NCBI RefSeq assembly: GCF_014879975.1
Contig: NZ_CP062501.1
Span: 124,001 to 188,000, forward strand
DNA from: Vibrio bathopelagicus
GTDB taxonomy: Bacteria; Pseudomonadota; Gammaproteobacteria; Enterobacterales; Vibrionaceae
Reading direction: 5' to 3'
Length of the DNA: 64,000 nucleotides
This document shows positions 24,791-56,814 of the stretch, in pieces. Each line of letters starts with the position of its first letter. Positions within the stretch are counted from its first letter, which is position 1. A program made the position numbers and the translations under genes. The notes under the pieces are model-generated. The model was not told the origin of the DNA. It did not search any database and was given only the letters and a program-made list of their open reading frames with translations.

Positions 24791-26770
24791 TTAGTGGCCA
24801 ATCGCCATTTCATCGAGCGCTAAGAACACATTCTCATCCAAGTGGCCTTCATGAACTTGCTTGCATACCTTGCGACGCACGGCCAAGCCAGAAATAAGAC
24901 GCTCAATTGAAAGGTGTCGATTACTGGTACTATCACGGTCATTGTAGAGTTCGATCAGCTTACTCAATGTTTCGTAAGGAATCACATCCTCTCCAACTCT
25001 TAACCAGTCAAGCTTCTCAATGAGCTCTGAGCACTCTTCCTTGATTGAGGCATGCGAGTGCCCGGTCATTGCTGATAAAGCCGTTATACTGCGTTCTAAA
25101 GCCTCTGAAGAGGTATATTTAGATAGGGTTATCATGATTTCGTCAGCATTGATCTCAACAGAGTGCTTACGTTGTTTTACTCTGCGCCCTAGCTTGCCTC
25201 TTGGTGAAGGGGCTTTGCGCTGAATAGGTTCAAATTCGCCATCAATGATTTCAGATAACTCTTCCAGCTTTTGCTTGGACACCATTTCATTGCGCAGTGG
25301 GTTCGGCAATGTTGGCGCCATATTTCGCTTACCAGCGTTGGTGGTGCGCGCTCTTGAGTAACGCAGCACTTCTTCAACGTTACATTTGATATCGACCTGA
25401 TAATCGGTGGTCTTGCCTTTTTCGATCAACGCAGTGATCGTCAGGTGGTAACCCCACAGGTTGACGAGGAAGGTATCTTCTTGCTCCCCTACCTCACCCA
25501 GTTTTCTCAGTTCGCGGATCAGATCCATCGAAAAACGACGCCAATCAATGTTACGCGCCAATTTTTGATTCAATTCGCTCAATAGCATGCAATCAGAGTG
25601 ACGACGCGCCATACGGCTTCTGAAGTAAGAATACATTTGGAAGACCAAGGTATGCTGCTTCAGGATCTCTGGTGGGAACAGGAAGAAATAATCGCGCGTG
25701 AGCAGCTCTTCATAGAACGATGGCTCCCATACCAAGATGTATAGGTTCGGTTTAATGCGAATTTCGCCGTCAGAGCCCTCTGTAGGCGCTTCTTCCGATG
25801 CAGTGATGGTTCTAGCTAAGAATCGGAAACGGTCGCTCTTAAAGCCTTCTGGCATGTTCTCACTAAGCCAACGGCCAGTAAGCTCATGCAACTGAAAATC
25901 AGTAAACTCAATGCGGTCAATGCTGTCTCGGATAGAGTCACGAGCCGGGCCGCTGTCTTTCTTGCCACGTAAGGAAAGAATATCCGTGATGTAGAGCGGT
26001 GTTTTGTTTGGTGTGTGCTTCGCATCTAGATGGTAATCGTCTTGATGATGATCGTGGTATTGAACTGTCAACGTGAATAACGCGAATAACGTCATCAGAT
26101 CATCAACGGTCATAATGTTTTTTGAAGATCGTGTTTCGATCACCGCTCGAGTTCCCGAGATCGAAACCATCGATTTCTGGTAGCTCTTACGTGTTCTAGG
26201 AGGCGCCAACGCTTGATCGATAATCCCAGCCCAATTGGTTGGTGAGACAATGAATTGATCCGCTTCATCTTTCATCGTCGGTGGAGTATTAAGACCGTGT
26301 TCATTCAATAAACGTTTGTTTACTTTGGTTTGAGCGAGGGCTTTAGAACGCTTTTGCTTTTCGTTTTGTTTCACACTTTCAGTCACTAAGCTGGTGGCAC
26401 CTAGCACTGATATCAACTGATTGGGATTAACAAAGCGATGTAGCATGGTTTTACCCGCAAGGCCTTCTTCAAAGCGAACTGGGATTTGCTTGAAAAGTCC
26501 GATACTTACAGCAGCTCTGAGTCTTTGTTGCAAGGCAGCACGTGTAACTTGTCCATCGGTTGATTCGATAATTTCAGTAGTTGAAACGTATCCATCTTTG
26601 CTGCTAAATCCGCGAAGTGAAATTAGGTTGAGAAGTTCAACGATGCTTTTCGTGACCCCTTTGAAGTGTTGATATTGTTCTATCCATTCAACGGCTGTTT
26701 CAGATACCTCAAATAAATGACCATCTTTGTGGCTTCGTGCCTTAATTAACAATTTCTCTTCTGGTTTCAT
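24791..26770 (-). CDS. rctB: chromosome II replication initiator RctB
   Basis: A 659-residue protein matching the length and sequence character of Vibrio RctB, the initiator specific to the second chromosome. The N-terminus MKPEEKLLIKARSHKDGHLF, winged-helix-rich central parts and the basic C-terminal linker PRGKLGRRVKQRKHS fit. RctB binds 12-mer iterons to unwind the origin and 39-mer sites that inhibit initiation, and it represses its own promoter. The gene faces away from the origin array, with the regulatory region at 26771-26960. It is found only in Vibrionaceae, which fixes the replicon identity. Confidence 0.97.
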   Translation of the reverse strand: MKPEEKLLIKARSHKDGHLFEVSETAVEWIEQYQHFKGVTKSIVELLNLISLRGFSSKDGYVSTTEIIESTDGQVTRAALQQRLRAAVSIGLFKQIPVRFEEGLAGKTMLHRFVNPNQLISVLGATSLVTESVKQNEKQKRSKALAQTKVNKRLLNEHGLNTPPTMKDEADQFIVSPTNWAGIIDQALAPPRTRKSYQKSMVSISGTRAVIETRSSKNIMTVDDLMTLFALFTLTVQYHDHHQDDYHLDAKHTPNKTPLYITDILSLRGKKDSGPARDSIRDSIDRIEFTDFQLHELTGRWLSENMPEGFKSDRFRFLARTITASEEAPTEGSDGEIRIKPNLYILVWEPSFYEELLTRDYFFLFPPEILKQHTLVFQMYSYFRSRMARRHSDCMLLSELNQKLARNIDWRRFSMDLIRELRKLGEVGEQEDTFLVNLWGYHLTITALIEKGKTTDYQVDIKCNVEEVLRYSRARTTNAGKRNMAPTLPNPLRNEMVSKQKLEELSEIIDGEFEPIQRKAPSPRGKLGRRVKQRKHSVEINADEIMITLSKYTSSEALERSITALSAMTGHSHASIKEECSELIEKLDWLRVGEDVIPYETLSKLIELYNDRDSTSNRHLSIERLISGLAVRRKVCKQVHEGHLDENVFLALDEMAIGH

Positions 26771-26880
26771 TTTTGATCCGTATCACACTAACCGTAATTT
26801 CACTATAGTTCCTGAATGATAAAGAAAGAATGATCATAAATAAAGAGAATTTATTGGCTTTTAAATAACTGATCTTTCTG

Positions 26881-26981: not shown

Positions 26982-27103
26982 ATGATCATAAAGATAGCGA
27001 AACGATGATCATAAAAGATAAGAAAGCATGATCACAGAACATCAGAACGATGATCATTAAGTCATTGTAAGCATGATCATTATTGGTTCGAAAGCATGAT
27101 CAT
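26982..27103. repeat. array of six RctB iterons (12-mers)
   Basis: ATGATCA occurs at 26982, 27005, 27028, 27050, 27073 and 27096, a spacing of 23, 23, 22, 23 and 23 bp. This is about two helical turns, so all copies face the same side. Each is preceded by AGC or ACG. Every copy contains a Dam site. V. cholerae oriCII-min also has six 12-mers next to a DnaA box. Confidence 0.95.
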
Positions 27104-27462: not shown

Positions 27463-27490
27463 CTTGATCATTTTTCCGGAAGTTGATCAT
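27463..27490 (+). promoter_or_regulatory. RctB 39-mer-type site, copy 2
   Basis: The core CTTGATCATTTTTCCGGAAG (27463-27482) is followed by a second TTGATCAT. A mirrored TTCCGGAAC lies upstream at 27446, so the element is partly palindromic. It sits in the rctA-type segment. Confidence 0.75.
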
Positions 27491-27607: not shown

Positions 27608-27785
27608 AGGCTCAATTCTCTGTTGTTTAGTGACGTTTCATCTTCGCTTTGTTTTTTATTGAACAAGCGATTTTCTAGGTTTTACTCTTTGTCGGTTGAA
27701 AATCTGTCAATTTCGAATGCAAATCACACGAACCGTAATCTATGCTTGTATTTCAATCGTTCCGAAGTTTTTTCTTTGAAATTCT

Positions 27786-28019: not shown

Positions 28020-29237
28020 ATGAAAAGAGAACAAACGATTGATAAGCTCTATCAGCTGGCCGAACAAACTCAACAAGTTCAGGCTGACCGAATTGAGATT
28101 ATTCTGGAAGAGCGAAGTGATGAGCATTTCCCTCCAATGTCTAAAGCTATGATGGAGACACGTTCAGGCTTAACTCGTCGAAAATTGGATGAGGCGATCA
28201 ACAAGCTTGAAGCAGATGGTCATCAATTTACAAAGAACAACGCCAATCATTACTCGATTTCATTGACCGAAGCTCACATGCTGATGGATGCGGCTGAAGT
28301 GCCAAAGTTCCACCAACGTAAGCAGCATGTCGACAATAAACCATGGGTTATCAACGTACAGAACCAAAAGGGTGGTACGGGTAAATCAATGACAGCGGTT
28401 CATCTAGCGGCTTGTTTGTCTCTGAATTTAGATAAGCGCTACCGTATCTGCTTGATTGACTTGGATCCACAAGGTTCTTTGCGTCTGTTCTTAAACCCAC
28501 AAATCAGTGGTGCAGAGCACGACAGCATCTATTCTGCAGTCGATATCATGTTGGACAACGTACCAGAAGGCCAAGATGTTGATCTTGAATTCCTTCGCAA
28601 GAATGTACTATTACCAACACAATATCCTAATCTCAAGACGATTTCGGCGTTCCCTGAAGACGCGATGTTTAACGCTGAAGCGTGGCAAAGCCTGTCTCAA
28701 GATCAGTCACTTGATATCGTTCGTCTTCTTAAAGAGAAGCTTATCGACAAAATCGCTGATGATTTTGATGTGATTATGATCGATACCGGTCCGCACGTTG
28801 ACCCGCTAGTGTGGAACGCGATGTACGCGTCTAATGCACTTCTTATCCCATGTGCTGCAAAGCGTTTGGACTGGGCTTCAACGGTTAACTTCTTCCAACA
28901 CTTACCAACCGTGTATGAGATGTTCCCAGATGACTGGAAAGGGCTTGAGTTTGTTCGCCTGATGCCAACGATGTTTGAAGACGATAACAAGAAGCAGGTA
29001 TCAGTGTTAACTGAGATGAATTACCTGTTGAATGACCAAGTCATGATGGCAACCATTCCAAGAAGCCGTGCCTTTGAAACTTGTGCAGATACTTACAGCA
29101 CGGTTTTCGACCTGACGGTTAGCGACTTTGAGGGGGGGAAGAAAACCCTAGCAGTTGCTCAAGACGCGGTACAAAAAAGTGCTCTAGAATTAGAGCGAGT
29201 ATTACATAGCAACTGGCCTTCACTTAATCAGGGATAA
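28020..29237 (+). CDS. parA2: chromosome II partition ATPase ParA2
   Basis: A 405-residue ParA of the larger plasmid-like (type Ia) class. An N-terminal winged-helix-type region of about 105 residues precedes the ATPase domain. The deviant Walker A motif is NQKGGTGKSMT near residue 114, the A' motif is ICLIDLDPQGSL near 142, and Walker B is VIMIDTGPHV near 255. It forms filaments or gradients on DNA that move ParB2-parS2 complexes and so position chromosome II. The parB2 gene follows after 5 bp. The class differs from the short ParA1 of chromosome I. Confidence 0.96.
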   Translation: MKREQTIDKLYQLAEQTQQVQADRIEIILEERSDEHFPPMSKAMMETRSGLTRRKLDEAINKLEADGHQFTKNNANHYSISLTEAHMLMDAAEVPKFHQRKQHVDNKPWVINVQNQKGGTGKSMTAVHLAACLSLNLDKRYRICLIDLDPQGSLRLFLNPQISGAEHDSIYSAVDIMLDNVPEGQDVDLEFLRKNVLLPTQYPNLKTISAFPEDAMFNAEAWQSLSQDQSLDIVRLLKEKLIDKIADDFDVIMIDTGPHVDPLVWNAMYASNALLIPCAAKRLDWASTVNFFQHLPTVYEMFPDDWKGLEFVRLMPTMFEDDNKKQVSVLTEMNYLLNDQVMMATIPRSRAFETCADTYSTVFDLTVSDFEGGKKTLAVAQDAVQKSALELERVLHSNWPSLNQG

Positions 29238-41275: not shown

Positions 41276-42598
41276 TTATCGGTTTTTGAAATCTGTCTTA
41301 TCGAGTTGGTGTTTCCTCAGCTTGTCATACAACGTCTTTCGAGAGACTTGGAGCTCTTGTTGCACCTCTTTCAATCGCCCTTGATGGCGATGTAACGCCT
41401 CGATTAAGATTATTTGTTCAAAGCTATCAGTACGTTGGCTTAATGATTGTTGCTGCTCTTCAAGGCTCATATCACGCTGGTTTTTGTCGTTTTGCTCATT
41501 ATCGTCACTGTCGAGAGATGGTTGCTTTACTTGAGTCAGCACTCTGAGCTCAGCATGTTGGCGCAGCTGTCGAATGTTTTCGCTCCAATGGGTTGCGATC
41601 AACCGCTGAATCTCTTTTTCTGTGATAACGGGCGGCGGTAACTGATATCGACTGGCTGCACCACGAGCAAAATGCTTGAACAAAGAGCCAATATCTTCCG
41701 TTCTTTGCGCCAAGGGTAGTAAATTAAATCGGCGCAGTTCACCTGTAATTGTAGTAGGAACTACTGTAGTTGCGATAATGATACAAGTTGCATTGGTCTT
41801 GCATGAGTTTTCACGAAGTAAAGTGGGTTTTAGAGCCGCTAACCATAACCATTGTTCTGACGTTAATGCTTCTGTTTCATGGATATAAAGTGTTCCGCCC
41901 TGATGTTTTAGGAATAATTGCAGAACAAACTGATCAAACGTAGCTTGGTCATTGCGTGGCAAATTGAATGCTGCGACAGGACAAAGCTCAGCAGTTTGAT
42001 GGCTGTGTAAATCGTGCGTGTACTGGGCTGTGATTCTTTTTCCTGTTCCTAAATCCCCAACAAACAACAATAGCGGGTTGGCTTTGGTATCTAAGGTGAT
42101 TAATTCCCGACGTAGGGTTTGCATCGAAGGAGATTGCCCGATCAGTTTTGGCCCCACTTGATTTTGCATCGCCAGTTCTTTTCTCAGCAGGTTGTTCTCT
42201 TCAACTAGGGCCAGTTTGTCAGCTGCTTTTTTTACTGCTGTGAGTAAAGCATCGACAACAAATGGCTTCTCTAAGAAGTCGTAAGCGCCAGATTTCATCG
42301 CTGATACGGCGGTCTGCACATCACCATGTCCGGTGAGCACAATCACTTGAAAATGGGGATTATGGCTGAGCAACTGTTGCGTAAGTTGAATACCATCCAT
42401 CACTGGCATGTGAATATCGGTGATCACAATTCCGGCTTGAGCAACGTTGATCTTCTTCAGTGCCTCAATGGCATTGGGAAAGCAGACAATATCGATGCCT
42501 TCAATAAGCATGGCTTGTTCTACTGAGTCTCGAATTGCTGGCTCATCGTCAACAAAATAGAGTTTGGGCATAGATTGCAAAAGCGGTGTCCTTAGCAT
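41276..42598 (-). CDS. DctD-like response regulator with degenerate AAA+ domain
   Basis: A 440-residue NtrC-family regulator. The receiver has phospho-acceptor Asp in VITDIHMPVMDG near residue 60 and a C-terminal Fis-type HTH (LKEVQQELQVSRKTLYDKLRKH) near 410. The AAA+ domain is degenerate: Walker A is GDLGTGKRI, the GAFTGA loop that contacts sigma-54 is missing, and the Walker B region reads GGTLYIHETEAL instead of GGTLFLDEI. So it probably acts as a DNA-binding regulator without sigma-54 remodelling. An alternative start at 42571 (MPKLYFVDDE) fits the receiver edge better. It is paired with the kinase immediately upstream. Confidence 0.85.
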   Translation of the reverse strand: MLRTPLLQSMPKLYFVDDEPAIRDSVEQAMLIEGIDIVCFPNAIEALKKINVAQAGIVITDIHMPVMDGIQLTQQLLSHNPHFQVIVLTGHGDVQTAVSAMKSGAYDFLEKPFVVDALLTAVKKAADKLALVEENNLLRKELAMQNQVGPKLIGQSPSMQTLRRELITLDTKANPLLLFVGDLGTGKRITAQYTHDLHSHQTAELCPVAAFNLPRNDQATFDQFVLQLFLKHQGGTLYIHETEALTSEQWLWLAALKPTLLRENSCKTNATCIIIATTVVPTTITGELRRFNLLPLAQRTEDIGSLFKHFARGAASRYQLPPPVITEKEIQRLIATHWSENIRQLRQHAELRVLTQVKQPSLDSDDNEQNDKNQRDMSLEEQQQSLSQRTDSFEQIILIEALHRHQGRLKEVQQELQVSRKTLYDKLRKHQLDKTDFKNR

Positions 42599-48697: not shown

Positions 48698-49813
48698 TTA
48701 GCTTTGCTTACTAGGAAGAAGCTTAACCCAGATGGTATCGCTGCCATTGATGGTTACAGAGCGGTTGTAAGATTCGTAACCCTGTTTTGAAATGGTTACT
48801 TGGTGACGTCCGCTTGGTAGTGCAACCTCAATTGGTGTGCTGCCATACTTGATGCCGTTAATGGTGACTGAATCATTGTACTGATCAGAACGTACCGTCA
48901 CGTTAGCCCACTGCTTGTCATTTTTCTTAACGACAGCGGCTTGGCTGCCTGTTAGACAGTAGCGCGTAGACACATTCAATAGGTTACAAGCGGCAATGGC
49001 TTCTGGTTTCGCTTGAAGCTGAGCTTGTATCTGCATGAAGTACGCGTTGTTGCCAGAGAAACCACTCTTAATTGCTTGGCTGTCTTGAACATGAATGTTC
49101 AGTTGAACACCCTGCAAGTTTTGCTTCGCTAGTGTGCTTTCTGTGAGCTGCTCAAGTAATTGGCTCTTGAACGTTTGAACGGCTTTTTGGTTCGTTAGGT
49201 GTTTGCCTTGAGATGTACATTCACCGAGTGTCATTGTTGATGCACAAGTAGTGGTGTAGCTGGTTTCAAGAACCGCACTTTCACGAAGCTCTGTTGCGAT
49301 ACGCTTAACGCGCGCTTCAACTTTTGACTCTCTCAAGTTAGCCAGCTCATTATTAAGACGCGCTTGCTTTTGCTTGATTTGAGAAAGGTGAATTTCACCC
49401 TCGTTCATCGCTTGTTGATTATCTAGTTGAGACGATTGATTCTCTTTAACGGCCGCCCAAGCATCTTGGTAGCTTTTCTGGAAAGAGACCAAATCAGTTT
49501 CTGGATCTTCAAGTAAGCGACTGTACTGTTTGTCTAGTACAGACTTAGCTCTGTTACGTTTTGCCTTAAGTTCTTCACCTTCGCGCAACAACTTACTATT
49601 TTTGTTTTGTAGTTGTTTTAGGTTTTCAGTCGCCGATACTTTGGTTGCTGAAATACGCTCAATATCTGAGTTTTTCTCTGTTAGCTTTGCATCGATAGCT
49701 GAAACAGGATCGACTTGATTCAGTTCTTCAGCGGATACCGATGCAGATACCCAAAGTGGGGATAGCGCGAGTAAAAGCGCTGAAATTCGAAAGTTAGTCA
49801 TAGGTCCCTGCAA
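48698..49813 (-). CDS. PEGA-domain periplasmic protein (paralogue of the downstream gene)
   Basis: A 371-residue exported protein with a signal peptide (LLLALSPLWVSASVSA), long coiled coils over about 30-170, a conserved TTCASTMTLGECTSQG segment and a C-terminal PEGA domain (VTINGIKYGSTPIEVALPSGRHQVTISKQGY). Its domain order equals the first 370 residues of the next gene, which shows segments such as CSSDMTLAQCSDQTV and NGVKYGSTPVEV in the same order. The pair arose by tandem duplication, with loss or gain of the FGE-like domain. PEGA domains occur in surface and cell-wall-associated proteins. Confidence 0.82.
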   Translation of the reverse strand: MQGPMTNFRISALLLALSPLWVSASVSAEELNQVDPVSAIDAKLTEKNSDIERISATKVSATENLKQLQNKNSKLLREGEELKAKRNRAKSVLDKQYSRLLEDPETDLVSFQKSYQDAWAAVKENQSSQLDNQQAMNEGEIHLSQIKQKQARLNNELANLRESKVEARVKRIATELRESAVLETSYTTTCASTMTLGECTSQGKHLTNQKAVQTFKSQLLEQLTESTLAKQNLQGVQLNIHVQDSQAIKSGFSGNNAYFMQIQAQLQAKPEAIAACNLLNVSTRYCLTGSQAAVVKKNDKQWANVTVRSDQYNDSVTINGIKYGSTPIEVALPSGRHQVTISKQGYESYNRSVTINGSDTIWVKLLPSKQS

Positions 49814-50294
49814 CTTGTAGATTGAAAATTGGCTCGTTAATAAAGTGTCTACTTCCTAGTTGTGAGTCACTAGTTATTAGCAATTAACACAGTACCCGTC
49901 TTTATACCGTTTTATTGCTATCCAATCTACTCAAAAGCCAAGTTTCGGTACTTCGGATACACTTTTTGCAGGTTTATCGCCAATTATTTGAGCTATATAA
50001 GAAAATTTATTCATTATGTTGGGGCGATAAAGTATTTATTGGTGACATGGTTTTTCGTGCTGGTGTGCTTGCTTGTATGAGTGCTTGTAAGCCCCTAAAT
50101 TCGTCGGAACGATTGGTTTTACAATGGCCGTAGTTTGTACACTCTTGATCATCTTTCCGGAGGCATGATCAAGAGGATCGCAACGATGATCATGTCTCTG
50201 GGGTGGGAAATAGCTCACATGATCATTTACAAATTCATCTTATGCAGATTTCAGAGTATTATTCTTAGTATGTCGACCTGAGTATTTTGCTGTT
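49814..50294. other. intergenic region with RctB-site cluster
   Basis: No supported gene lies in these 481 bp; a 72-codon frame at 49915-50133 has no ribosome binding site. The right half carries the RctB-like cluster at 50144-50226. Confidence 0.6.
50144..50226. repeat. distal RctB-binding-site cluster (39-mer-type plus iterons)
   Basis: CTTGATCATCTTTCCGGAGG (50144-50163) matches the oriCII copy at 27463 at 17 of 20 positions. It is followed by ATGATCA at 50165, 50186 and 50219, in contexts GC-, CG- and AC-ATGATCA like the origin iterons. The cluster is about 23 kb from the origin array on the parAB side. Distal RctB sites on chromosome II are known to tune initiation in V. cholerae. Confidence 0.8.
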
Positions 50295-51119
50295 ATGCCA
50301 AAACCTTTACTTTTTCCAAATCTAGACCTGTCCCCGCTAGGCCTTACTGGCCCTCGCCCCGCAGAGATCATTACGCTGCCATCGCATATGGATTGTCATG
50401 AACACCACTATTCTCAGGTGGTGATAGGTTTAAAAGGTCAGGCGGAATTTGAAGTAAGTGGTAAAGGCAATCTGGTTGGGCCCGGACAGGGTTGTGTGGT
50501 TACTGCTAGCTCTGATCATGCTTTCGGTGGTGTAGTCGGTCAGTCGGATATCTTGGTGCTTAATCTGCCAATGCCAAGTGACGATGACCCTTTGATGTTA
50601 GAGAAGATAAACCAACTGGCATCATCCAACATCTACTTCCAATTAGATGCGCAAATTCAAAAGCTTATTCATATGTTGGTGCAAGAGATGCAGGCGAGCC
50701 CTGATGATCTGTTATTGAGTCGCGCGTGTAATGATACGGTGGTTGCGCTGCTGCAGAGACATATCTCGGCATTTGAAACCTCGATTAAAGACTCTCGTTT
50801 TGATCTAGAAGCGTTGGATCGTTATATCGAGCTCCATTTAGCAAACAAGATATCAGTTGCACAATTGGCGGGCAGTGTGTTCTTGGGTGAAAGCCAGTTC
50901 CACATGCTTTTCAAAGATCAAATGGGCATTACCCCTCACCAGTATGTTTTAGGAAAGCGTATCGACCGCTCTCGACGCCTTATTGAACAAGGGAATCTTA
51001 GCCTTGGTCAGGTCGCTGAACTGGCTGGTTTCTCCGGTCAATCGTCCTTTACTCACACCTTTTCTCGCCTTCAAGGCATGTCACCATCTCAATACAAAAA
51101 GCAAATTTCTGTTAAATAA
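50295..51119 (+). CDS. AraC-family transcriptional regulator, probably of proline utilisation
   Basis: A 274-residue regulator with an N-terminal cupin (HMDCHEHHYSQVVIGLKGQAEFEVSGKG near 32-58) and a C-terminal double HTH (NKISVAQLAGSVFLGESQFHMLFKDQMGITPHQYV and LGQVAELAGFSGQSSFTHTFSRLQGMSPSQYKKQ, in parts). The divergence-free position directly before putA, and the lack of the DNA-binding domain in this PutA, suggest it activates putA and putP. The ligand would be proline or a derivative. Its promoter region contains the RctB-site cluster. Confidence 0.88.
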   Translation: MPKPLLFPNLDLSPLGLTGPRPAEIITLPSHMDCHEHHYSQVVIGLKGQAEFEVSGKGNLVGPGQGCVVTASSDHAFGGVVGQSDILVLNLPMPSDDDPLMLEKINQLASSNIYFQLDAQIQKLIHMLVQEMQASPDDLLLSRACNDTVVALLQRHISAFETSIKDSRFDLEALDRYIELHLANKISVAQLAGSVFLGESQFHMLFKDQMGITPHQYVLGKRIDRSRRLIEQGNLSLGQVAELAGFSGQSSFTHTFSRLQGMSPSQYKKQISVK

Positions 51120-51300: not shown

Positions 51301-54300
51301 ATGTTTACAGCTACTGATGTGTTAAAGCCAGAATTCAACGAGCAGTCGCTTGATGATCTTTGGACGCTTATCTCACCATTATATATGGTGGATGAAACCC
51401 AATGGCTAGAGCAACTTCTGCCGCTAGCTACCCCTTCTGAGTCTGAAAAGCAGCAAATTACAGACAAAACGACGTCGTTGATTGAGTCTATCCGTGCGGA
51501 TAAAACATCTATTCAAATGATCGACGCTTTGTTGCTTGAATACAGTTTAGATACTCAAGAAGGCATCTTGCTAATGTGTCTGGCGGAAGCCTTGATGCGT
51601 ATTCCTGATTCGGCAACGGCTGATGCACTGATTCGCGACAAACTTAGCGTTGCGGATTGGAAATCTCACCTGAAGAATTCTGACTCGGTTTTTGTTAACG
51701 CATCAACTTGGGGCCTAATGCTAACAGGCAAGGTGGTTGGACTTTCATCTAACGAGCAGAGTGCAGGTCAAGCAGTTAACCGCTTAGTGAACAAGCTTTC
51801 TGAGCCAGTGATTCGTAAAGCGATGCATCAAGCAATGAAGGTGATGGGTCACCAATTTGTTCTTGGCCGCAGCATTGCTGAAGCGCAAAAGAACGGTAAG
51901 TCTATGCGTGACAAAGGTTTTACCTACTCATATGACATGCTAGGTGAAGCGGCACTGACCACTGCAGACGCAAACAAATACTTCAAAGATTACCTAATGG
52001 CGATTGAAGCCGTAGGTCGAGACACGTATGTTTCTTCAACATCGAGCCCTGCACCGTCTGTTTCTATTAAGCTTTCTGCGCTTCACCCACGTTACGAAGT
52101 AGCGAATGAAGAACGCGTATTGACGGAACTGTGCGACACGCTAGAGCAGCTATTGCGCCGAGCAGTAGAGCTTGATGTTGCAATTACGATTGATGCTGAA
52201 GAAGCGGATCGCCTAGAGCTTTCTCTTAAATTATTCGAAAAACTGTACCGTACCGATCTTGTAAAAGGTTGGGGTAAATTTGGTCTGGTTATTCAAGCTT
52301 ACTCAAAGCGTGCACTACCAGTTCTAGTATGGCTAAACCGCTTAGCGAAAGAGCAGGGTGATTTGATCCCGCTTCGTTTGGTGAAAGGCGCTTACTGGGA
52401 TAGCGAAATTAAATGGTCGCAACAAGCTGGCTTTACTGATTACCCAGTTTACACACGCAAAGAAGCGACAGACGTAGCTTACCTTGCATGTGCGCGTTAC
52501 CTGTTGAGCCCAAGTGTTCGTGGCAATATCTTCCCGCAGTTTGCGAGTCACAATGCCCATACGGTTTCTGCTATTGCAGTGATGACTGAGCACAAAGACT
52601 TTGAATTCCAACGCTTACACGGCATGGGTGATTCTCTTTACAACCATGCGATGGAAGCGTACCAACAGTCAGTACGTATCTACGCACCGGTTGGCAGCCA
52701 TAAAGACCTTCTGCCATACCTAGTACGTCGCTTGCTAGAAAATGGCGCAAACAGTTCGTTTGTACACCGTCTAGTGGATGCACGTTGCCCTGTGGCAGAA
52801 CTGACTCAACACCCAGTCGATATGCTTCTGGCATTCGATACATTACATAACACCAAGATTCCATTACCACCGGCTGTATTCCCTGAGCGTAAAAACTCTT
52901 ACGGTGTGAACATTGATATCGAGAGTGAAGCGCATCAGTTTGAAGCACAGGTAAAAACATTCCTTAACAATCAATGGACTGCTGGCCCTGTGATCAACGG
53001 TGAATCTCTTGCCGAAAGCATGATCAAGGCTGATCAGAACGTTGAGCAAGTAACCGCACCTTACGATCGTCGTATTAATGTGGGTCAGGTGGCTTTCGCT
53101 AACCTTGATCATGTTTCCGCAGCGATCACTGGCGCAGACGCGGCATATGCTGATTGGAACGCGACTTCAGTGGAAACCAAAGCGGCTGCACTTGATAAGC
53201 TGGCTGACCTGATGGAAGACAACCTGGCTGAGCTGGTGGCGATTTGTCATCAAGAAGCGGGTAAGACAATTCACGATAGTGTTGATGAAGTACGTGAAGC
53301 GGTCGACTTCTGTCGTTACTACGCAAAACAAGCTGACAACCTACAAGGTTTCGAACTAAAAGGTTTTGATGGCCAAACACGAATCGCTTCTCGACAAGGT
53401 CGTGGTGTGTTCGTTTGTATCAGCCCTTGGAACTTCCCTTTAGCCATCTTCCTTGGCCAAATTACAGCGGCATTGGTTGCAGGTAACACGGTTGTGGCGA
53501 AGCCTGCCGAGCAAACAAGCTTGATTGCAGCTCGCGCGGTTGAACTGATGAATGAAGCGGGCTTCCCTGCTGGCACTATTCAGTTATTACCAGGTCGTGG
53601 TGCTGAGATCGGCAGTGCACTAACCAGCCATGATGCGATTGCTGGCGTTGCCTTTACTGGCTCAACACCAACAGCGCAACGTATCAACGTGTCACTGGCA
53701 AGCCGTAACGCTAAGCCTGTTCCGTTTATCGCGGAAACTGGTGGTCAGAACGCAATGATCGTCGACAGTACAGCACTACCTGAACAGGTGGTTCGTGATG
53801 TGATTCGTTCTGCGTTTGCTTCTGCAGGCCAGCGTTGTTCTGCACTGCGTGTGCTTTACATCCAAGAAGACATTGCAGATCGCGTAGTTGGATTGATTCA
53901 CGGTGCAATGGATGAACTGAGTGTAGGTATCCCACATCTTCATAAAACGGATGTTGGTCCGGTTATCGACCAAAATGCGAAACAGAAGTTGTTGGCTCAC
54001 TTAGAAAACATGACTAATACCCAGAAGAAGGTGGCGCAACTTTCTTTAGGTTCTGATTGTGAACATGGTGACTTTGTTCCACCAAGTGCGTTTGAAATAG
54101 ATGACATTAGCTGTTTGAAAGAAGAGCAGTTTGGCCCTGTGCTGCACATTGTTCGCTTCAAAGCGAGTGAGTTGGCGCAAGTGGTAGACCAAATTAACCA
54201 AACGGGCTTTGGCTTAACCATGGGTATTCACAGCCGCAACGAGACAACTTACCGTTGGATCGAAAAGCACGTGCGCGTGGGTAACTGCTACATCAACCGT

Positions 54301-54438
54301 GACCAAGTGGGCGCTGTTGTTGGTGTTCAACCATTTGGCGGTCAAGGTTTGTCGGGTACAGGCCCTAAAGCGGGTGGTCCTCACTACCTATATCGCTTTA
54401 CTGATGTTCATTTTTCTCAATCACAAGACAAGGCATAA
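51301..54438 (+). CDS. putA: bifunctional proline dehydrogenase / L-glutamate gamma-semialdehyde dehydrogenase
   Basis: A 1045-residue enzyme that oxidises proline to glutamate. The FAD-dependent PRODH barrel spans about 130-480 (SIKLSALHPRYEVAN, LRLVKGAYWDSEIK, ASHNAHTVSAI). The NAD-dependent ALDH domain spans about 560-1040, with FVCISPWNFPLAIFLGQ near 705, VAFTGSTPTAQ near 780, Glu in PFIAETGGQNAMIVDS near 810, and the catalytic Cys in SAGQRCSALRVLYIQ near 845. The N-terminal ribbon-helix-helix repressor domain of enteric PutA is missing, as usual in Vibrio. FAD-linked PRODH passes electrons to quinones at the membrane. Confidence 0.97.
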   Translation: MFTATDVLKPEFNEQSLDDLWTLISPLYMVDETQWLEQLLPLATPSESEKQQITDKTTSLIESIRADKTSIQMIDALLLEYSLDTQEGILLMCLAEALMRIPDSATADALIRDKLSVADWKSHLKNSDSVFVNASTWGLMLTGKVVGLSSNEQSAGQAVNRLVNKLSEPVIRKAMHQAMKVMGHQFVLGRSIAEAQKNGKSMRDKGFTYSYDMLGEAALTTADANKYFKDYLMAIEAVGRDTYVSSTSSPAPSVSIKLSALHPRYEVANEERVLTELCDTLEQLLRRAVELDVAITIDAEEADRLELSLKLFEKLYRTDLVKGWGKFGLVIQAYSKRALPVLVWLNRLAKEQGDLIPLRLVKGAYWDSEIKWSQQAGFTDYPVYTRKEATDVAYLACARYLLSPSVRGNIFPQFASHNAHTVSAIAVMTEHKDFEFQRLHGMGDSLYNHAMEAYQQSVRIYAPVGSHKDLLPYLVRRLLENGANSSFVHRLVDARCPVAELTQHPVDMLLAFDTLHNTKIPLPPAVFPERKNSYGVNIDIESEAHQFEAQVKTFLNNQWTAGPVINGESLAESMIKADQNVEQVTAPYDRRINVGQVAFANLDHVSAAITGADAAYADWNATSVETKAAALDKLADLMEDNLAELVAICHQEAGKTIHDSVDEVREAVDFCRYYAKQADNLQGFELKGFDGQTRIASRQGRGVFVCISPWNFPLAIFLGQITAALVAGNTVVAKPAEQTSLIAARAVELMNEAGFPAGTIQLLPGRGAEIGSALTSHDAIAGVAFTGSTPTAQRINVSLASRNAKPVPFIAETGGQNAMIVDSTALPEQVVRDVIRSAFASAGQRCSALRVLYIQEDIADRVVGLIHGAMDELSVGIPHLHKTDVGPVIDQNAKQKLLAHLENMTNTQKKVAQLSLGSDCEHGDFVPPSAFEIDDISCLKEEQFGPVLHIVRFKASELAQVVDQINQTGFGLTMGIHSRNETTYRWIEKHVRVGNCYINRDQVGAVVGVQPFGGQGLSGTGPKAGGPHYLYRFTDVHFSQSQDKA

Positions 54439-55154: not shown

Positions 55155-55320
55155 CCTTCAGTAAATCTGGCTCTAAAGACTTTTGGTTTTTTCCATTTTG
55201 GGAGTTATCCATTGGTATTTGGGGCCATAATCCCTAATTCAATGTATTCGCTTACCTTTACGGTGAGTGCATTGCATCGAATTAGGCATGGAAGGCTTTC
55301 TACAAAATGAGGACTATCAA

Positions 55321-56814
55321 ATGATAGAAAACAGTTTTGCAATAACGACGACGTTCATTGCGTATCTAATTATGATGCTAGCGATCGGTGTTATTGCTTA
55401 CAAACGTACATCTAACTCAACTGACTACTTTCTAGGTGGTCGTTCGTTAGGCCCATGGCCTGCTGCACTTTCTGCTGGTGCATCAGACATGAGTGGCTGG
55501 TTGCTACTAGGTCTGCCTGGTTACGCTTACGCTGCTGGCTTTGAAGCATTCTGGCTTGCTGGTGGTCTACTTGTGGGTACTTGGGCAAACTGGTTAATCA
55601 GTGCTAAACGTCTACGTACTTACAGTATTACGACTGAATCACTGACTCTGCCTGAGTTCTTATCTCGCCGCTTTAATGACAATTCAAAGCTGATACAAAC
55701 AATTTCTGCTTTCTTTATCCTTTTATTCTTCCTTTTCTACACAAGTTCAGGCTTGGTAGCAGGTGGTAAATTGTTTGAAACAGTATTCGGCCTAGATTAC
55801 ACAACAGCGGTAATCATCGGTACTGTATGTGTGGTTTCTTACACCTTGTTTGGTGGCTTCTTAGCGGTATCTTGGACGGATTTGGTTCAAGGTCTACTGA
55901 TGTCTGCAGCACTATTGATTGTACCAATTGCTGCAATGGACGGTGGCCTAGGTCAGCTTTCTACTGACTTACACAACATCAACCCAGAGCTATTAACGCT
56001 ATGGAATGATGCGAAGGGTGAGCCGCTTTCTGCTATTGCGATCATCTCTCTAGCGGCATGGGGTTTAGGTTACTTCGGTCAACCACACATCTTGGCTCGT
56101 TTTAAAGCAACTCGTTCAAACAAAGATCTTGTGACAGCACGCCGCATTGCGGTTATCTGGACTGCTCTTTCTATGATTGGTGCAATGCTAGTGGGTCTTG
56201 TTGGTCTAATTTACGTGACTAACTCTGGCGCACCTAAGCTAGACGATGGCGAGAAGATCTTCATGCTTCTTGTTAACGCGATGTTCCACCCAGTAATCGC
56301 AGGTATCCTACTTGCTGCAATCCTAGCGGCAATCATGAGTACTGCGGATTCACAACTTCTTGTTTCTTCATCTGCAATGGCAGAAGATCTGTACAAGCAA
56401 GTTCTGAAGAAAGACGCAACGTCAGAAGAGATTGTTCGTGTGGGTCGCTTTGCGGTAATCCTAATCTCTCTTATCGCGCTATTCTTAGCGATGACACCAG
56501 ACAGCTCAGTACTTGGCCTTGTATCTTACGCATGGGCTGGTTTTGGTGCTGCGTTTGGTCCAGCTATCGTGTTGAGCCTTTACTGGTCTCGTATGAACCG
56601 TAACGGCGCTCTAGCGGGTATCGTGGTTGGTGGTGTTACGATTGTACTTTGGAAGCAGTTCACAGGCGGTTGGTTCGATGTGTACGAAATCGTACCAGGA
56701 ATCATCCTATCGACTCTTTCTATCGTTATCGTGAGCCTAATTACGGGCGAGCCAGAAGACGAAGTGAAGAAGCAACACGCTGAATTCGAGAAGAATCTGG
56801 TAGAACTAGATTAG
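55321..56814 (+). CDS. putP: sodium/proline symporter PutP
   Basis: A 497-residue sodium:solute symporter with about 13 membrane helices. Family signatures include the segments DYFLGGRSLGPWPAALSAGASDMSGWLLLG near 35-65 (Na+ and proline site) and SWTDLVQGLLM near 185, and AAIMSTADSQLLVSSSA near 335. I start it at 55321 (MIENSFAITT), where GAGGA lies 7 bp upstream; an open frame extends to 55267 but adds a non-membrane leader with no ribosome binding site. It imports the proline oxidised by PutA. A terminator and a parS2 site follow. Confidence 0.96.
   Translation: MIENSFAITTTFIAYLIMMLAIGVIAYKRTSNSTDYFLGGRSLGPWPAALSAGASDMSGWLLLGLPGYAYAAGFEAFWLAGGLLVGTWANWLISAKRLRTYSITTESLTLPEFLSRRFNDNSKLIQTISAFFILLFFLFYTSSGLVAGGKLFETVFGLDYTTAVIIGTVCVVSYTLFGGFLAVSWTDLVQGLLMSAALLIVPIAAMDGGLGQLSTDLHNINPELLTLWNDAKGEPLSAIAIISLAAWGLGYFGQPHILARFKATRSNKDLVTARRIAVIWTALSMIGAMLVGLVGLIYVTNSGAPKLDDGEKIFMLLVNAMFHPVIAGILLAAILAAIMSTADSQLLVSSSAMAEDLYKQVLKKDATSEEIVRVGRFAVILISLIALFLAMTPDSSVLGLVSYAWAGFGAAFGPAIVLSLYWSRMNRNGALAGIVVGGVTIVLWKQFTGGWFDVYEIVPGIILSTLSIVIVSLITGEPEDEVKKQHAEFEKNLVELD

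Follow-up and report, generated by a model that had tools for sequence, protein, structure and literature searches.

RctB-binding sites on chromosome 2 (Chr2) of Vibrio cholerae have been reported by ChIP-chip (Baek and Chattoraj 2014, PMC3937223), and the same paper describes in vivo and in vitro binding of RctB to these sites as well as their inhibition of copy number. Among the iterons, only a hexamer is fully conserved (PMC3937223). The site chrII-10, located between 1027995 and 1028034 of N16961, lies within a ChIP-chip peak region, was bound by RctB in EMSA with and without methylation (the unmethylated form being a PCR fragment), and was the strongest copy-number inhibitor, an inhibition that extra RctB did not overcome. 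Deletion of chrII-10 gave no growth phenotype; its effect on oriII/terII is opposite in Fig. 5B and is called without significant effect in the Discussion (PMC3937223). A fragment of the 1025 kb region of V. cholerae showed no origin activity when assayed (PMC3937223). In a literature text search, the name chrII-10 was found in no paper other than PMC3937223, and the main-text parts of that paper hold no mention of putA, other species, a coding location or conservation. RctB loops between 39-mer-type sites have been seen in ori2 (PMC11711613), and the 29-mer is described as a 39-mer minus 10 nt of its centre (review PMC6090056). By ChIP-seq in 2025, six Chr2 regions were reported, crtS was the only strong enhancer, and mutation of three Chr1 sites had minimal effects, one of them weak but significant (PMC11711613). 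A literature search including PMC5854411, PMC8826520 and PMC11711613, which covered main texts and few subscription journals, found no report on the conservation of extra-origin RctB sites. What is known is the mapping of RctB sites in V. cholerae, and what is new here is that a composite RctB-type site is kept in most of the genus, also where AraC, or AraC together with putA, has gone from the locus, and that two more sites inside putA are under synonymous constraint, one of them encoding a peptide absent from PutA outside the family.

The DNA analysed here, referred to as the window, is the whole 64-kb stretch C2:124001-188000 of a two-contig 5.67 Mb genome, and covers ori2 and its surroundings on the second chromosome of a Vibrio. 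The Chr2 replication initiator gene rctB (24791..26770, minus strand) was recognised by PF11826 and PF18622, and upstream of it lies a 29-mer (26786..26814, plus strand) of the form CCGTAA-N10-GTTCC, like the V. cholerae 29-mer in PMC11711613; its arms span 26792-26812 and stand 10 bp closer together than those of a 39-mer. Six ori2 iterons with a spacing of 22-23 bp were found by motif search at 26982..27103 (plus strand), and the ori2 iterons in the window include GAAAGC and GAAACG forms. An ori2 39-mer (27727..27765, plus strand; CCGTAA-N20-GTTCC) has its arms at 27733-27763, with the same 20-bp interior as at the put element described below. A ParA-type partition gene (28020-29237) is adjoined by a gene that we take, by its position, to be parB2. 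The gene for an AraC-family regulator (50295..51119, plus strand; Pfam HTH_18, HTH_AraC and AraC_binding), which finds its closest named relatives, at 99% identity, in V. sp. 14G-20 and V. lentus, is followed on the same strand by putA (51301..54438; bifunctional proline dehydrogenase, NCBIfam NF008869, 1627 bits, cut-off 747) and putP (55267..56814; sodium/proline symporter, TIGR02121, 710 bits, cut-off 515.5). In other genomes, distant RctB-family matches (35-93 bits) were also found on other contigs, at G258:C26:1443-2189, G321:C5:29094-29741 and G156:C3:329101-329631, and are possibly plasmid initiators.

The presence of an RctB-type site cluster beside and inside putA was confirmed. Upstream of the AraC gene, a 39-mer with a nested iteron occupies 50122..50160 on the plus strand, in which CCGTAG (50128-50133) and TTTCC (50154-50158) are separated by 20 bp and form a CCGTAG-N20-TTTCC frame (50128-50158) enclosing the first TGATCA, an iteron core and Dam site (50146..50151, no strand assigned). 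Three further iterons follow, ATGATCA at 50165..50171 (plus strand) and ATGATCAT at 50186..50193 and 50219..50226 (no strand assigned), which are 20, 41 and 74 bp past the nested one, respectively. The original prediction had indeed placed three iteron-like ATGATCA sites behind a core; they start at 50165, 50186 and 50219. It had given the extent of the cluster as 50144..50226, a start that is too late, since the conserved element begins at ~50122. It had also matched CTTGATCATCTTTCCGGAGG at 50144-50163 to 27463-27482 at 17 of 20 positions; the site exists and the correct count is 18 of 20. The sequence at 27463, which had been taken for a 39-mer-type core, resembles instead the short GATC-bearing iterons of ori2, the clear 39-mer of ori2 being that at 27727-27765.

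ATGATCA is over-represented in the window (49 found versus 11.6 expected), and 49 was reached in 0 out of 100 shuffles. Across the 5.67 Mb genome, triple TGATCA with gaps of 14-32 bp is confined to two places, namely the iteron array of ori2 and the put cluster, and the reversed control of this pattern had 0 matches genome-wide. Four of the Dam-site TGATCA are in the upstream cluster and three in the putA stretch 53021-53111. Compared with the GAAAGC/GAAACG-ATGATCA of ori2, the flank of the putA site agrees (GAAAGCATGATCA), that at 50186 is close (GCAACGATGATCA) and that at 50219 is poor (CTCACATGATCA). The cluster was rejected as the Chr2 origin, the regular iteron array beside rctB being at 26982-27103 and not at the cluster. 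The composite in the window is identical to the ori2 39-mer at 20 of 39 positions. The bare frame CCGTAR-N21-TTCC is unspecific, with 13 genome hits versus 10 and 11 in reversed controls, and was rejected as a genome-wide finder. The 39-mer assignment would be weak from the window by itself, and is based on comparison between species.

For this comparison, 67 named Vibrio(nales) loci were aligned over 300 bp surrounding each extrapolated AraC start, with the Motilimonas locus (L101) left out. The best 39-column window, ACATTGACCGTAATTTATGTGCACTTGATCATTGTTCCG, which corresponds to the 39-mer at 50122..50160, has 1.38 bits per column versus at most 0.64 in the 183 windows free of overlap with it, and every column of the nested TGATCA is 99-100% conserved in the 67 loci. 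The exact composite is present upstream of AraC in 65 of the 67 loci within 270 bp and in 66 within 700 bp; the sole exception (L074) carries TGGTCA instead of TGATCA. Among 66 loci, an additional TGATCA follows the nested one by 18 to 22 bp in 34, by 36 to 44 bp in 9 and by 66 to 80 bp in 13, and three or more of them, as in the window, occur only in the loci of V. lentus and V. sp. 14G-20. Because these extra iterons are clade-restricted, the local site density reflects an expansion, within one lineage, of a site that is much older. Loss of the motif beside conserved flanking genes, which would have counted against the original prediction, is contradicted for the core (66 of 67 loci) and does apply to the three downstream iterons.

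As a 32-bp pattern, the composite is exact in 173 out of 227 Vibrio genomes, in a single copy each (reversed control, 0), and 43 of the 54 remaining genomes match at two or fewer mismatches. Neighbouring genes were examined in 30 of the 173 genomes with an exact match, all 30 of which have it beside put genes. Among 30 inexact-match loci that were fetched, 24 adjoin AraC or putA and six are ori2 39-mers. With these 24 and 12 others assigned by nearness to AraC/putA coordinates (36 inexact matches at the put locus, G209 excluded), the composite is present at the put locus in about 209 out of 227 Vibrio genomes (173 exact and 36 within two mismatches). Two more genomes (G220 and G144) carry a three-mismatch form. 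Upstream of putA in G148 (L263) and G190 (L267), the 39-mer arms are intact but not the nested TGATCA, which is replaced, as though the composite could lose its two functions separately, and three genomes (G066, G170 and G180) have no upstream site within 1.5 kb of putA and keep both putA sites. At the family level, 177 out of 325 genomes match, from 2 of 13 genera, namely Vibrio (g1) and a Photobacterium-like genus (g8), labels that were inferred from named relatives; the latter has exact matches in 6 of 52 sampled genomes. In a third genus (G237), the frame is found 197 bp upstream of putA if the last base of the pattern is omitted. At the order level, 27 out of 394 genomes match, all of them Vibrio; none of the 360 genomes that were sampled from the order beyond the family has a match.

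The original prediction regarded the cluster as an equivalent of the distal RctB sites of V. cholerae, which is supported by coordinates. The genome G089 has a 1,074,151-bp replicon and the exact V. cholerae 29-mer of PMC11711613, and its composite upstream of AraC was set equal to chrII-10. An iteron of G089 at -2752 bp (ori2 side) is then predicted at 1,030,767, versus the published outermost site at 1,030,773, and the putA iteron at +3036 is predicted at 1,024,979, versus a region around 1025 kb (its centre) with two published iterons. The fourth coordinate was unmatched: the nearest predicted TGATCA to the published far end (956,828) is at 956,572, 256 bp off over 71 kb, an offset that strain indels could explain. 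With three coordinates in agreement and the fourth off, the put-upstream site is by its position the counterpart of chrII-10. In V. cholerae, VCA1073 is putA (PMC9201469). In the V. cholerae group (L091, L188, L189 and G089:C2:763711), one more GAAAGCATGATCA is located ~2.75 kb toward ori2; no GAAAGCATGATCA was found at this ori2-side position in the window, where the nearest TGATCA (47470) is unconstrained.

Inside putA, the iteron GAAAGCATGATCAAG (53014..53028, plus strand), which encodes ESMIK, falls on a synonymous-constraint peak (z 5.0), and CTTGATCATGTTTCCG (53104..53119, plus strand), an iteron with TTCCG that resembles the composite 39-mer in its right half, falls on the highest peak of putA (z 5.5). 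A second TGATCA (53031..53036, no strand assigned) is present 10 bp after the putA iteron in some clades only (19 of 56 putA), and the V. cholerae-type genome G089 has the same pair. The scan covered 1036 nine-codon windows in 56 aligned putA sequences (the window, 54 further Vibrionales loci and Motilimonas); 13 of the 68 fetched loci gave no putA owing to a contig end, an incomplete match or an internal stop. The top two peaks, at 53098 and 53005, had z values of 5.5 and 5.0 when the scan was repeated without Motilimonas. Among the sequences with the respective residue, Ser is encoded by AGC in 54/54, Ile by ATC in 53/53 and Lys by AAG in 53/53, and AGCATGATCA and TGATCATGTTTCCG are intact in 53 and 44 of the 56 putA, respectively. 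As a control, none of 10 TGATCA in eight further genes of this region exceeded a z of 1.6, by which a generic constraint on TGATCA in these genes was rejected, and another TGATCA in putA (52991) had a z of 2.1; gene 45493 was dropped from the constraint scan (3 sequences). A peak as strong as those of the putA sites (z 5.3) was also observed in the first nine codons (42572-42598) of gene 41276-42598, which are without TGATCA.

The peptide encoded by the putA iteron is itself restricted in distribution. ESMIK is absent from 30/30 PutA proteins of the order outside the family (30 fetched from 37 matching genomes among 40 searched), in 27 of which the loop is shorter and in three of which (L282, L285 and L286) it has other residues; TGATCA occurs nearby in 2 of these 30 genes, without iteron context, and at the second site in none. 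In the solved PutA structure 5kf6, the ESMIK stretch aligns opposite a gap. When Vibrio outliers are included, the peptides are ESMIK, ETMIK, GTMIK and GSMIK, for which the codons before ATGATCAAG are GAAAGC, GAAACG/GAAACA, GGAACT and GGAAGT/GGAAGC, respectively. Variable flanking codons support the view that the DNA site would drive the peptide of PutA. Exceptions are two loci without the putA iteron (L059 and L077), two genomes without both putA sites (G203 and G013), and the Photobacterium-like genus, in which both internal sites are missing from 8/8 putA examined. One of the PutA proteins from another family (L282, G364:C67:178887-182015) is 81% identical to that of the window, above some Vibrio proteins, and is a candidate for transfer.

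The put region and the rctB flank keep their synteny, and the element is at the 5' end of put genes in every locus examined. AraC is absent from the locus in G126 (exact match) and in G156, G107 and G083 (two mismatches), where the element precedes putA, and both AraC and putA are absent in G054 and G149 (both exact), where it precedes putP. AraC alone does not explain the retention of the element because it persists in these six genomes, and an AraC operator was accordingly rejected as the sole cause of conservation. Control of put transcription could still play a part because the element precedes a put gene in every locus examined. Distances to rctB were obtained for 109 rctB-element pairs (103 from Vibrio and six from genus g8), counting only pairs on one contig and in linear coordinates. 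Of these, 94 are within 63 kb, comprising 83 on the parAB side, 13-62 kb apart with a median of 23.6 kb, and 11 on the other side of rctB within 57 kb. The other 15 pairs are 131-435 kb apart, the element staying with the put locus, so that nearness to ori2 is not essential, and a constant distance from ori2 was rejected as proof of a replication role. In G132:C1 (L253 and L254), a contig of 4.07 Mb in a genome of 4.8 Mb, the order of rctB, parAB and the put element is the usual one and the element is kept, so that the two chromosomes may be fused there.

Taken together, we consider it probable that the upstream element is an extra-origin RctB-binding locus of Chr2 that restrains ori2 as an ori2-linked sink or bridging site. 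The locus stands on the parAB side of ori2 at a distance of 23 kb, with two more sites 2.9 kb away inside putA. RctB would bind the 39-mer regardless of methylation, and the nested and neighbouring iterons when these are Dam-methylated. By taking up RctB, the locus would be a negative element for ori2, and since RctB bound at a 39-mer can bridge to other sites, the locus may tie RctB to ori2 (handcuffing). Being near ori2, the locus would be doubled soon after initiation, and the sink would thus grow when re-initiation must be prevented, in the manner of datA for DnaA in E. coli. By analogy, we infer that the activity in V. cholerae would hold in V. bathopelagicus, and we suppose in the same way the timing logic of the growing sink and the bridging from the put locus to ori2. 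The little effect of deleting one site of many in V. cholerae fits redundancy, and is also the main weakness of the sink reading.

The upstream element might instead be mainly an operator at which bound RctB controls AraC/put transcription, coupling proline use to the RctB level or to replication of the locus, with replication effects being side effects of any RctB site. We regard this explanation as unlikely. The original prediction had likewise suggested a coupling of regulator expression to RctB, on which the present data are neutral. It is favoured by gene order, as AraC (35 loci) or putP (one locus) is directly downstream in all 36 fetched exact-match loci and AraC or putA accompanies the 24 of 30 inexact ones that are not ori2 sites, as well as by the shift of the element to the put gene that comes next in loci lacking AraC, or both AraC and putA, and by its remaining beside put even at loci distant from rctB. 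In addition, RctB represses the PrctA and PrctB promoters via iterons and the 29-mer (PMC3937223). However, the element is 14-470 bp from the extrapolated first start, unlike a fixed operator, and the putA-internal sites are 1.7-1.8 kb into the coding region. Moreover, RctB did not significantly affect VC1042 and had a weak positive effect on VC1803, and according to PMC11711613 it appears to regulate only its own gene, but put is not among the genes named there. No sigma-70-like match was detected within 49750-50350.

That the AraC regulator, CRP or another factor binds the block, its likeness to an RctB site being incidental, is very unlikely. The block is upstream of a regulator gene, and its inner part, which reads TTATGTGCACTTGATCA in many species, looks like a candidate weak CRP site. 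Nevertheless, the block is kept where AraC is missing from the locus, the splendidus and harveyi groups have not retained the inner TGTGCAC, and putA contains the same cores again. In Motilimonas, which possesses both AraC and putA, the 600 bp preceding AraC are free of TGATCA and both putA sites are missing. Purified RctB binds the V. cholerae counterpart (PMC3937223). We attach still less weight to ParB2, rather than RctB, as the main ligand of a secondary segregation site: ParB2 competes with RctB at the ori2 39-mers (PMC11711613, PMC3688505), but a ParB2 scheme leaves the nested TGATCA and the iterons of putA without a role, and it was with RctB that ChIP-chip and EMSA recovered chrII-10 (PMC3937223). 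Chance clustering of TGATCA in GATC-rich DNA was rejected as having a negligible probability, for although single sites are common, with ~1000 TGATCA hexamers in the V. cholerae genome (Baek and Chattoraj, PMC3937223), triple clusters occur at only two places in the 5.67 Mb genome and the core is conserved genus-wide, exactly in 173/227 genomes.

Returning to the extra-origin RctB locus that restrains ori2, a broader proposal, to which we give about even chances, is that Chr2 replication control has, after ori2 and crtS, a third conserved cis element in the AraC-putA stretch. It would be a distributed RctB sink made of one 39-mer/iteron composite and two coding-embedded sites, in which selection for initiator sites has shaped PutA, the five residues of a variable loop (ESMIK, ETMIK, GTMIK or GSMIK) spelling the iteron and its variants, so that a replication element would be maintained via protein sequence across the genus. 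The occurrence of the composite in about 209 of the 227 Vibrio genomes, together with initiator sites inside an unrelated enzyme, suggests that the sites matter for fitness and that the enzyme keeps them at the cost of its own sequence freedom. The three sites offer a defined target for studying what keeps Chr2 from re-initiating and whether its timing is set by sites outside ori2. They also carry a warning that conserved codons and loops in origin-near genes can belong to replication and not to the protein.

The locus can be compared with several known systems. As in the DnaA titration locus datA of Escherichia coli, a comparison made by the V. cholerae authors (PMC3937223), origin-proximal initiator-binding sites would lower initiation, whereas DnaA and RctB are unrelated initiators; datA is reported to promote DnaA-ATP hydrolysis (a reference title in PMC6090056), an activity not claimed for the put locus. 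Like crtS, it is a conserved RctB-binding site outside ori2 in Vibrionaceae, predicted in our case, but crtS is on Chr1, is unlike iterons or 39-mers, and stimulates ori2. With the 39-mers, 29-mer and iterons of ori2, the put cluster shares the CCGTAR-N20-KTTCC frame (N10 in the 29-mer) and iterons of the GAAAGCATGATCA type, but has neither the six-iteron regular array nor an origin layout. Compared with the chrII-5/chrII-6 iterons of the 1025 kb region (PMC3937223), putA of the window has the same TGATCA pair 10 bp apart and a site 85 bp further on, giving three TGATCA versus two published iterons. In relation to chrII-10, the window differs in having three further iterons within 80 bp and in its distance from the rctB domain match (~24 kb versus ~41 kb); the two flanking iteron sites of V. 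cholerae are present in G089, and the ori2-side one is missing from the window. Both have a 39-mer with a nested iteron, and by the coordinates of G089 both occupy the same locus next to putA.
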